From positions 496,001-560,000 of the forward strand of contig JAJDTU010000005.1 of assembly GCA_022826965.1 (NCBI GenBank): a stretch of DNA of 64,000 bases, read 5' to 3'. Shown here piece after piece: positions 18,855 to 37,020 of the stretch; the stretch's first letter is position 1, and each line of letters opens with the position of its first letter. Under the pieces are notes generated by a model that searched no databases, was not told the origin of the DNA, and saw nothing but the letters and a program-made list of their open reading frames with translations. Origin of the DNA: Dehalococcoidia bacterium (GTDB taxonomy: Bacteria > Chloroflexota > Dehalococcoidia > Bin125). The position numbers and the translations under genes are program-made.

Positions 18855-20465
18855 TCAGGTACGCAGACTGTTGAGGAGTTCTCGCGCGACGGCTCGGTCG
18901 TCCCAGGGTTCGACGCGGTCGGCGTAGATCAGCGTTGGTTCGGCGCCCTTGCCGGCGATCAGTACGACGTCGTCGGGCTGCGCCAGGGAGATAGCGCGGC
19001 GGATGGCCTCGCGCCGTTCGGGCTGCTTGTCGAATGACTCACTGCCGGCCTCGACGAGGTGACCGGCGATCTCTTCGACCATCTGGACAGGATCCTCCGA
19101 GCGCGGATTCTCGTTGGTGATGACCGTGTAGTCGGCGTAGGTTGCCGCAGCGGTCGCCATGCTCGACTTGCGGATCGGGTCGCGCTCGCCGGCGACGCCG
19201 AAGACGAGGATGAGGCGTCCGCGGACGTGCGGCTTGAGCGTCTGCAGCGCGAGGTCGAGGGCGGGACCGGTGGCAGCGGCGTCGACGATGACGGCGAAAG
19301 GCTGGCCTTCGTCGATTGATTCCATGCGTCCGGGAACGGGCCGGAGGTTTCTCAGTGCCGCCTGCATGGGGACGGGGCCGATGTCGAGGCTCCAGGCCGC
19401 GCCGACGGCGAGCGCGGCGTTGCCGAGGTTGTAGTCGCCGGGGATCGGGAGTCGCGCGCCGAGCGCGCCTGCCGGGGTGACGACTCGGATGTCTGAGCCA
19501 CGAGCGTCCTGAGAGCTGCTGATGACGCTGACATCGGCGGTTGTGTCGGGGGTTGCGGTGGCAATGACCGTCTGCTGGCCGTGAGAGGATTCGATCGTTG
19601 AGCGGAGCGGGTCCTCGGCTCGGACGACGGCGGCCGGCGGACTGGGGAGCCCCCCTCTGCCTTCGGCACCTCCCCCCGCTTCGCGGGGGGAGAGGGGAAC
19701 TGCGGTTCGCCCCGTTGCGCGGGGGGAGATGGGAGCCTGGTGCTGGTCGAGAGATCTGAAAAGTCGGAGTTTGGCGGCGAGATACCGCTCGCGGGTTTCG
19801 TGGAAGTCGAGGTGGTCGTCGGAGAGGCCGGTGAAGACGGCGACCTGGGTGTTGATCTGGTCGGCTCGGTGCAGTTCGAGGGCGTGGGAGCTGACCTCGA
19901 GGACGGCGTGTGTGTCACCGGCGGCGACCATCTGGGCGAGCTTGGCCTGGATGATGTCGGCCTCGGGCGTGGTCTCGCCGGTCCCGTTGCGGGTCCATTC
20001 GCCACCGATGTGGAATTCGACACCGTTGAGCAGGCCGGTCTGGTGTCCGGCGGCGCTGAGGATGGCGTGGGTGAGATAGGTGGTGGTGGACTTGCCGTCG
20101 GTGCCCGTGACTCCGATGACGGTGAGCTTGCGAGCCGGGTAGTCGTGGAAGGCGGCGGCGATCTGCGGGAGGGCGGCGCGGGTGTCGTCGACGGTGACGA
20201 CGGCGATGTCGGGATTGGCATCGACGATCGGCTGCCAGAGTTGGCGACGGTCGGCCTGGACTACCAGAGCGGATGCGCCGTTGGCGATGGCGGACTCAAG
20301 GTGCTGGTGGCCGTCGACGGTGAAGCCGGGAACGGCGACGAAGGCAGCGCCCGGGGTGACGGATCGGGAATCCTGGGTGACGCCCGAGATCAGGGTTTCA
20401 GGTACATGAGAACTGTCGATCGGGTCGAGCGAGTTGAGAATCTCAAGCAGGGATCGCTTCGTCAT
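18855..20465 (-). CDS. murE: UDP-N-acetylmuramoyl-tripeptide synthetase with repeat-derived insertion
   Basis: A 536-residue Mur ligase that adds the third stem-peptide residue to UDP-MurNAc dipeptide. It shows the N-terminal uridine-binding domain (SGVTQDSRSVTPGAAFVAV), ATP loop GTDGKST at 121-127, the central EVSSHAL region and a C-terminal ENPRSEDP, close to the DNPR motif of diaminopimelate-adding MurE. The start MTKRSLLEIL at 20465 follows AAAGGG; the longer frame up to 20654 runs through a repeat and RNase P RNA and is rejected. Residues about 245-272 (PISPRATGRTAVPL to GGLPSPP) are encoded by a GC-rich interspersed repeat inserted in frame between LFRSLDQHQ and AAVVRAEDP. The rest of the ligase is intact. 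Confidence 0.9.
   Translation of the reverse strand: MTKRSLLEILNSLDPIDSSHVPETLISGVTQDSRSVTPGAAFVAVPGFTVDGHQHLESAIANGASALVVQADRRQLWQPIVDANPDIAVVTVDDTRAALPQIAAAFHDYPARKLTVIGVTGTDGKSTTTYLTHAILSAAGHQTGLLNGVEFHIGGEWTRNGTGETTPEADIIQAKLAQMVAAGDTHAVLEVSSHALELHRADQINTQVAVFTGLSDDHLDFHETRERYLAAKLRLFRSLDQHQAPISPRATGRTAVPLSPREAGGGAEGRGGLPSPPAAVVRAEDPLRSTIESSHGQQTVIATATPDTTADVSVISSSQDARGSDIRVVTPAGALGARLPIPGDYNLGNAALAVGAAWSLDIGPVPMQAALRNLRPVPGRMESIDEGQPFAVIVDAAATGPALDLALQTLKPHVRGRLILVFGVAGERDPIRKSSMATAAATYADYTVITNENPRSEDPVQMVEEIAGHLVEAGSESFDKQPERREAIRRAISLAQPDDVVLIAGKGAEPTLIYADRVEPWDDRAVARELLNSLRT
19650..19733. repeat. Interspersed GC-hairpin repeat inside murE
   Basis: The 48-bp core at 19650-19697 contains perfect 10-bp arms CTCCCCCCGC / GCGGGGGGAG (19670-19679 and 19683-19692). 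A second half-copy, CCCCGTTGCGCGGGGGGAGA, follows at 19710-19729. Copies recur at 20492, 21531 and 36971. This copy keeps the murE reading frame open. Confidence 0.85.
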
Positions 20466-20491: not shown

Positions 20492-20536
20492 CCCCCCTCT
20501 GCCTGCGGCATCTCCCCCCGCTCCGCGGGGGGAGAG
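20492..20536. repeat. Interspersed GC-hairpin repeat between rnpB and murE
   Basis: This repeat begins CCCCCCTCTGCCTGCGGCAT and has hairpin arms CTCCCCCCGC (20512-20521) and GCGGGGGGAG (20525-20534). It is nearly identical to the copies at 19650 and 36971. It lies 27 bp upstream of the murE start, in its leader. Confidence 0.85.
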
Positions 20537-20580
20537 CGGAGGTAGGAATCCTCCATCTCCGCTGCACGGTAGAGAGCATT

Positions 20581-21530: not shown

Positions 21531-21714
21531 CCCCCCTCTGTCACTCCGTGACATCCCCGCATCGTGGTGCGGGGCAGGCTCCCCCCTGGCGCGGGGGGAG
21601 AGGGGATTGGGGCTGCGCCCTTCGCCCTCCGATGCCCCGCACTTGATGCGGGGCCTAGACCTCCGGCGTTGAGGGCCGGCCTGGGTGCTCTGGCCCCCGC
21701 GTCAAGCGCGGGGG
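21531..21714. repeat. Cluster of GC-rich palindromic repeats between rnhA and recombinase
   Basis: The intergenic stretch 21477-21809 holds no gene but several hairpins: CCCCGC/GCGGGG at 21555-21560 and 21569-21574; a diverged copy of the murE repeat ending GCGGGGGGAGAGGGG at 21591-21605; GCCCCGC/GCGGGGC at 21634-21640 and 21648-21654; and CCCCCGC/GCGGGGG at 21694-21700 and 21708-21714. They look like accumulated dispersed palindromes near the 3' end of the recombinase gene. Confidence 0.75.
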
Positions 21715-21809: not shown

Positions 21810-23255
21810 TCAGGCTTTGAGTTGGGTGGTGACGGAATCGTCGAAGACGACGACTTGTTCGACGAGCTGTTCGATCAGATCTCTCTGCTGGGGGAAGTTG
21901 AGATCGTCCCAGTCTTCTCGGACTCTCTGCAGTCGCTGATCTCGACGACGGCGGCGATCGGCTTCTCGCTCCTGGGCGAGCGCGCGGTCCTTGATCTGGG
22001 CGAGATCGGCGCTTGCTGATTCCCATTCGGTGATGATGTCGGCGCCGGCTTCGTGCAGCGCAGACGGCGGCGGATCGCCGGAGGCGGCGTCTTCCAGTAG
22101 CTGGGCGAGCTTGCGGTCGATGGCTCGCAGGCGCGACTCCGCCGTGGCGACGGCGACGGCGGTTTCGGCGGCGAGCGCGGTGTCGTCCCGGCCGATGTTG
22201 AGTACGGCGATCTCTCCACCATGTCGCTCGCCGCGGATGTGGGCGAGGACTTCTTCTTCTAGCTCGTCGGCGCGGCGGGTGTGGTAGCCGCCGACGGACT
22301 GGTTGGTGCGCGCCTCGGACTGGTAGTAGCGATAGGTGGCGGCGGCGGTCTCGCCGCTGGCGAGGCGCCACTGTTGGCGTCGGGTGACGCCGATCATGCG
22401 AGTCCGGTCTTCGCCGCACCAGACGAGACCGGCGAGCAGGAAATCGGACGGGTGGCTAATGCCCGGCGCGGTCCGACGCTCGGCCATCTGCCGTCCGACG
22501 GCGGCGAAGTCGGGCTCCGAGACAATGGCGTGATGGTTGGCGGCAACGGTGACGCCGAGCTTGTCGTAGCGGCCGATGTAGACGGGATTGCGCAGCAGGT
22601 CGCGAATGCTGACCATGCTCCAGTTGCGTCCGCGGCGGGTCTGCAGGCCATCCTCATTCAGTCGCTGGGCGATGCGGCGAATGCCGAGTCCGTCGTGCAG
22701 GTAGAGGTTGAAGATGCGTCGCACGACGGGCGCTTCTTCTTCATCGATCTCATAGCGACCGTCGTCGCCGACGCGATAGCCATAGGGGGGACGTCCGATG
22801 GCCTGCCCCTGACGGGCGCGCTCGTGCAGTCGCTCGCGGCGACGCTCGGCGTCGGGGTCGGGATCGCTGTGCAACCTCCAGAGGTCGATCAGGGAAGACT
22901 CATCGACCGGTCCGTCGTCGAGGGAGACGAGCTGTACGCCGCGAGCGCGCAGTTGGAGGACGGTTCGCACGGCGTGCGTGGCGTCGTGGCCGAGATTGCT
23001 GAAATTCTGGACGATGACGAATGTGAACCCGCGCGCTTCTTCGTTGAGGTGGCGCAGCAGTTGGCGTAGACCGGGGCGCTCTCGACCGGGAGTCGTGTCG
23101 GCATCGAGAAACGTTGCAGTCGGCTCGAAGCCGTTGCACTGGCAGTACTCGAGGAAGTTGGCGTTCTGTGTCACCAGCGAGGGCTGGACCGGAGCAGGGT
23201 GCTCCGTCCGAGACGAGTGAGTGCCGGGCTGGCTGAGGTATCCGATGGCTCGCAC
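21810..23255 (-). CDS. Degenerate large serine recombinase (likely catalytically inactive)
   Basis: A 481-residue protein with the order of a large serine recombinase: resolvase-like domain (1 to about 130), recombinase domain (ARQGQAIGRPPYGYR at 147-161, VRRIFNLYLHDGLGIRRIAQRLN, WSMVSIRDLLRNPVYIGRY), then a region that should be a zinc ribbon (273-320), a coiled coil (350-450) and a tail. Key residues are lost: the N-terminus is GYLSQPG instead of YxRVS, the DRLSR arginine loop is NFSNLGHD (84-91), and only one ribbon cysteine remains (C280). The frame is open throughout, so it is maintained. Start GTG 23255 has TAGCAT 6 nt upstream. A DNA-binding or regulatory role is more likely than recombination. 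Confidence 0.85.
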   Translation of the reverse strand: MRAIGYLSQPGTHSSRTEHPAPVQPSLVTQNANFLEYCQCNGFEPTATFLDADTTPGRERPGLRQLLRHLNEEARGFTFVIVQNFSNLGHDATHAVRTVLQLRARGVQLVSLDDGPVDESSLIDLWRLHSDPDPDAERRRERLHERARQGQAIGRPPYGYRVGDDGRYEIDEEEAPVVRRIFNLYLHDGLGIRRIAQRLNEDGLQTRRGRNWSMVSIRDLLRNPVYIGRYDKLGVTVAANHHAIVSEPDFAAVGRQMAERRTAPGISHPSDFLLAGLVWCGEDRTRMIGVTRRQQWRLASGETAAATYRYYQSEARTNQSVGGYHTRRADELEEEVLAHIRGERHGGEIAVLNIGRDDTALAAETAVAVATAESRLRAIDRKLAQLLEDAASGDPPPSALHEAGADIITEWESASADLAQIKDRALAQEREADRRRRRDQRLQRVREDWDDLNFPQQRDLIEQLVEQVVVFDDSVTTQLKA

Positions 23256-36970: not shown

Positions 36971-37020
36971 CCCCCCTCTGCCTGCGGCATCTCCCCCCGC
37001 TTGCGCGGGGGGAGAGGGGG
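36971..37020. repeat. Interspersed GC-hairpin repeat upstream of uvrB
   Basis: This copy begins CCCCCCTCTGCCTGCGGCAT and has 10-bp arms CTCCCCCCGC (36991-37000) and GCGGGGGGAG (37005-37014), followed by AGGGGG. It differs from the copy inside murE at only a few positions. Confidence 0.85.

Follow-up and report, generated by a model that had tools for sequence, protein, structure and literature searches.

The window analysed here, a stretch of 64,000 nucleotides (C4:496001-560000) from a 3.0-Mb Dehalococcoidia MAG that is 97% complete, carries an intact copy of the essential cell-wall gene murE (Table 1). The product is a sound MurE by profiles, sequence and fold: it scores 420 bits against TIGR01085 (cutoff 257) and 379 bits against NF001126 (cutoff 373) in a family profile search, contains the N, M and C Mur_ligase domains of Pfam, matches solved MurEs in sequence, and has M. 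tuberculosis MurE (2wtz) as its best fold match in the PDB. Its membership of the MurE ligases is borne out by the conserved Mur motifs as well as the family profile, the catalytic residues (the G118-K125 motif, E190, H218, and K232) being invariant in 29 aligned MurEs. Directly upstream of murE and of a neighbouring repeat copy lies the RNase P RNA (class A, Rfam RF00010; 20578-20978, minus strand), and an ORF at 21810-23255 (minus strand), near a repeat-rich stretch, resembles a serine recombinase in sequence.

Table 1. The murE gene, its insert, and the repeat copies of the window (positions are those of the window)
Feature	Position	Strand	Description or basis
murE, UDP-MurNAc-tripeptide synthetase	18855-20465	minus	536 aa, intact; profiles, domains, fold
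In-frame insert, residues about 244-277 (APISPRATGRTAVPLSPREAGGGAEGRGGLPSPP)	19635-19736	minus	comparison with six empty genus members; low pLDDT
Repeat unit (about 48 bp), type 1, in murE	19650-19696	minus	genome copies and consensus
Hairpin 1 in murE	19670-19692	minus	CTCCCCCCGC GAA GCGGGGGGAG on the murE strand; reads CTCCCCCCGC TTC GCGGGGGGAG in the window
Hairpin 2 in murE	19659-19667	minus	GCC GAA GGC, type 1; type 2 of relatives is TCNC NNN GNGA
Decayed extra hairpin, long form only	19706-19728	minus	three mismatches to hairpin 1
Second unit copy, between rnpB and murE, non-coding	20492-20538	minus	pattern search, window comparison
Looser type-2 copy, non-coding	21531-21605	minus	sequence
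Third unit copy, no coding read-through	36971-37017	minus	genome search

A sequence-only reading of this DNA had proposed that a palindromic repeat sits in frame within murE and leaves the reading frame and catalytic motifs undisturbed, and both proposals were confirmed: between LFRSLDQHQ and AAVVRAEDP the genuine, unbroken MurE ORF holds an insert built around a single copy of a palindromic repeat some 48 bp long. The same reading counted some 28 added residues, which proved too few, as the net insert over empty relatives is 96 nt (32 aa). Hairpin 1 has a 10-bp stem in the predicted fold, and the extra hairpin, held on a 36-nt segment that is missing from the short-form inserts of relatives, may be interpreted as a truncated, oppositely oriented unit. 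An unusually stable RNA structure at the insert was rejected, the region folding no more stably than its dinucleotide shuffles (z -0.9), and a search for a plasmid source returned no match. An assembly artefact was likewise rejected, the insert being present in nine separately binned genomes, and is unlikely because different projects contributed several of the public Dehalococcoidia/Chloroflexota MAG records; the isolate names suggest that the genomes may be of sponge or reef origin.

Placed on a MurE structure by an AlphaFold model from the 29 aligned MurEs (mean pLDDT 90.6), the insert departs from the far end of helix 225-241, the helix bearing the invariant K232, which we take to be the carbamylated lysine of Mur ligases, and forms a low-confidence loop between this helix and strand 278-282. 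Residues 252-271 mostly fall below a pLDDT of 50 (252-254, 256-262, and 264-271). The insert is thus predicted to be a disordered surface loop; its site would be permissive and the loop probably harmless to the enzyme.

The repeat matches that had been noticed near 20492 and 36971, and more loosely at 21531, are all real by pattern and window comparison. Hairpin 1 recurs exactly, with the loop TCC, at 20512-20534, and the hairpin pattern was seen three times in the window (counting the version with three mismatches within murE) against 0.02 expected by chance; the copy at 36971 was missed by this pattern because its loop is GCAA. Far from being absent elsewhere, the core is found in at least 113 copies in the 3.0-Mb genome by a degenerate search of genome stretches. 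Among the 40 of 141 candidates scored, there were 47 genome matches at E<=1e-3, and the closest other copies share 97% identity with the murE unit over about 57 nt. In a consensus of 62 type-1 and 46 type-2 copies from the same genome, the unit reads roughly CCCCTCTCCCCCCGC NNN GCGGGGGGAGATG (hairpin 2) CAGAGGGGGGC on the murE strand, with no clear sequence conservation beyond some 48-52 bp. Hairpin 2 exists in two types, GCC-GAA/GCA-GGC (type 1) or TCNC-NNN-GNGA (type 2), and the type-2 stems covary between genome copies in a compensatory manner (TCAC/GTGA, TCGC/GCGA, TCCC/GGGA, and TCTC/GAGA). A composite copy of two inverted units, ending in GCCCCCCTCTG...CAGAGGGGGGC, occurs at locus L063 of this genome, in which one test of partner proximity found a nearby inverted partner for 5 of 108 units. 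Such composites are rare here; in G008 and G003, many type-1 and type-2 units are paired in inverted orientation at a distance of about 55-70 bp. At L111 (G000:C6:56800-65600), some ten type-2 units that all point the same way lie within 7 kb, partly as a 152-bp tandem array, and a second GC-rich palindrome family (CCCTCACCCTAACCCTCTCCC..GGGAGAGGGGA) accompanies the repeat in the intergenic regions of L057 and L067.

The great majority of copies lie between genes, murE being the exception. When the 113 copies of the genome were subjected to a codon-usage test, the coding signal was read through on both sides in two; the second of these (C4:210184) was rejected as intragenic, as it falls between two ORFs judged from their translations to be malate-dehydrogenase-like and fumarase-like. 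The murE copy is accordingly the only one of the 113 shown inside a real gene, though a few intragenic copies may be missed since the sensitivity of the test for known coding flanks is about 75%. Intragenic candidates in G003 and G010 were also rejected, being antisense or running off gene ends. Within the genus, 14 of 15 genomes contain the repeat, a reversed control pattern giving no or almost no matches, and forward hits by one pattern range from 0 (G007) to 160 (G003) per genome. Both hairpin types occur in nearly all genus genomes with the repeat, G001 having no more than a few type-1 copies and G007 none. A mainly type-2 pattern found a single match in all across the five other genomes of the family, and the repeat is essentially confined to the genus.

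Comparison of murE in the 15 genus members revealed an insert at the same place in nine (this genome, G004, G014, G010, G013, G002, G003, G005, and G008) and an empty site in six (G011, G001, G009, G012, G007, and G006), from which it follows that the insertion is old and no novelty of this genome. The suspicion of a new example therefore fails in so far as it implied one private to this genome, and stands only for the host gene, which is possibly new. A general MurE loop built from unrelated DNA was rejected, the nine inserts matching the repeat and the six relatives having no loop. Relative to the empty form, the inserts measure +96, +60, +57, and +63 nt net, all multiples of three, and the frame is kept in nine of nine; with the repeat lying wholly within a conserved ORF and empty orthologs at hand, murE provides an instance of a protein-coding palindrome. 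The long form with the extra decayed hairpin is found in this genome, G014, and G010, the short forms being without exactly 36 nt bounded by the direct repeat TCTCCCCCCGCG. A non-repeat flank (CAGGTTCC-like) is common to about six species and missing in the empty ones.

Trees of MurE, built without the insert from both protein and DNA, show the two length forms and the two hairpin types scattered among the species. At least four changes of hairpin type and at least three of long or short form are needed on the protein tree, and three sister pairs each combine one type-1 with one type-2 insert, two being well supported in the protein tree and all three in the DNA tree. Such turnover, given that both types are in the pool of nearly every genome with the repeat, could be taken to mean that the murE copy is refreshed at one hotspot, whether by independent insertions recurring there or by gene conversion from the genomic pool (concerted evolution). 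We consider this possible but doubtful, for three observations argue against it. The hairpin-1 loop is GAA in eight of the nine despite the diverse loops of the own genome, where 9 of 43 type-1 loops are GAA (the chance of at least 8/9 at 21% is 3e-5, if this pool represents other species), which speaks for a single insertion as the ancestor of this part of the sequence. The downstream spacer is tied to type (type 2 has 14 nt, or 17 in G008; type 1 has 18 or 15), a pattern suggestive of two old alleles that have passed from species to species. Finally, murE contains mosaic stretches: G010 and G013 diverge by 1.3% over 300 nt against 12.8% overall. The same figures describe the L012/L013 murE block 300-600 nt upstream of the insert, and point to murE having recombined between species. 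The type turnover could be explained either by two insert alleles passing between species or by compensated replacement from the genomic pool, and the frame holds across types because type 2 carries 4 nt more in the hairpin and 4 nt fewer just downstream. Recent exchange of long tracts around the insert by same-type species was rejected: flanking sequence within 60 nt diverges just as much as elsewhere and does not follow insert type, so that any exchange tracts would be short.

The core of the insert is conserved to an unusual degree. Third positions of its eight codons are 97% identical (97.2%) over the nine inserts, a value equalled by 3 of 436 other murE windows, compared with a mean of about 63% elsewhere in murE; in eight species they are 100% identical, which none of the 436 windows reaches (maximum 96.9%). 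This excess conservation is real and beyond synonymous drift, and pure neutrality does not explain it. With the core DNA nearly identical and the downstream reading swapped between two hairpin alleles, the murE copy might be an actively homogenised or nucleic-acid-constrained protein-coding palindrome, although we hold this to be rather unlikely. It is less probable still that selection on the nucleic acid keeps the insert for a hairpin role in murE mRNA or DNA (translational pausing, mRNA stability, or protein binding): the frozen third positions are what would be expected, but six species are without the insert, hairpin 2 switches freely between types, shuffled sequences fold just as stably, and the occurrence of the same core in genome-wide copies makes the freezing look like a property of the repeat and not of murE. 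A functional loop under protein-level selection is the least credible proposal: eight of nine species have a similar SPREAGGD peptide, but the loop is predicted to be disordered, is missing in six relatives, and has its second half shifted in frame to unrelated residues (AEGRGGLP versus VAERQRGAP) whenever the hairpin type changes.

The reading that we prefer, with a probability of roughly 80%, is that of a genus-specific, REP-like selfish repeat tolerated in a permissive loop of murE since an early insertion. A repeat that reaches tens to more than 100 copies per genome where it is abundant, most of them intergenic, would early in the history of the genus have entered murE at the loop following the helix with the catalytic lysine, probably as a composite of two inverted units. 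It would have survived because its length kept the frame and the loop was surface-exposed and tolerant, the enzyme thereby gaining a disordered proline/glycine/arginine-rich loop of about 20-32 residues at little or no cost. Several lineages would later have lost the extra hairpin in an in-frame deletion of 36 nt, probably by slippage between the direct repeats, and two alleles differing in hairpin type would have spread or been exchanged between species with the frame always kept. The shared site and flank, the lengths in multiples of three, the low-confidence loop, the GAA loop, the invariant catalytic residues, and the distribution of the repeat within and outside the genus all count in its favour. 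Its single origin is opposed by the grouping of the empty G001 and G009 with this genome and G004 (bootstrap 85 for protein, 82 for DNA), which would have to be accounted for by losses or gene exchange; on whether the inserts form one clade the trees speak neither way (p-AU 0.06 and 0.10).

Palindromic elements within genes have been described in several systems. The RPEs of Rickettsia lie in frame within conserved genes, including a guanylate kinase that is still active (PMC2229807), and their inserts are solvent-exposed, with orthologous sites that may carry different RPE groups (PMC3767692). The sequence-only reading had named this precedent, yet the phenomenon is known beyond Rickettsia, intragenic REPs, often dimers coding for 20-30 residues, having been found in many bacterial species, with different REPs at about the same site in Xanthomonas recB (PMC3733652). 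The present repeat resembles the RPEs and the WPE of Wolbachia as multicopy palindromes, some in frame at exposed sites of conserved genes and shared by orthologs (PMC3767692, PMC2229807), but is set apart by length and location: those elements, from other lineages, measure about 100-150 bp with many copies intragenic, against about 48 bp and 1 in 113. With the REPs of the GTAG and CGTC families, it has in common short stem-loops, monomers and dimers, and a mainly intergenic location with few copies in genes (PMC3733652). As a short palindrome of high copy number, mostly intergenic, it is REP-like in the broad sense; unlike the RAYT-tied GTAG families, however, its consensus has no GTAG end tag, nor is there CGTC at the unit end. 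Mobilisation by RAYT is unsupported, the Y1 transposase PF01797, the one family searched, being found in only one of the 15 genus genomes and not in this one, with control genomes positive. MITEs with coding potential (ERIC, Correia/NEMIS) are likewise small, non-autonomous, and joined in frame with ORFs of the host (PMC2229807, PMC10969869), whereas terminal inverted repeats are seen here only in the rarer composite copies. The insert in murE fits closely into the intragenic RPE/REP class. What is unusual is the gene hosting the repeat, the all but frozen DNA of its core, and the way its hairpin types have turned over; as no description of murE with a palindromic-element insert was found in the open-access literature, the host gene may be new to a phenomenon already known.

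The insert extends the short list of palindromic repeats turned protein by a Chloroflexota case in a single-copy gene for the cell wall, and the presence of occupied and empty orthologs in one genus makes its gain, loss, frame compensation, and turnover directly traceable. Should the murE copy indeed be homogenised or constrained, it would be a natural record of a selfish repeat coevolving with an essential gene.
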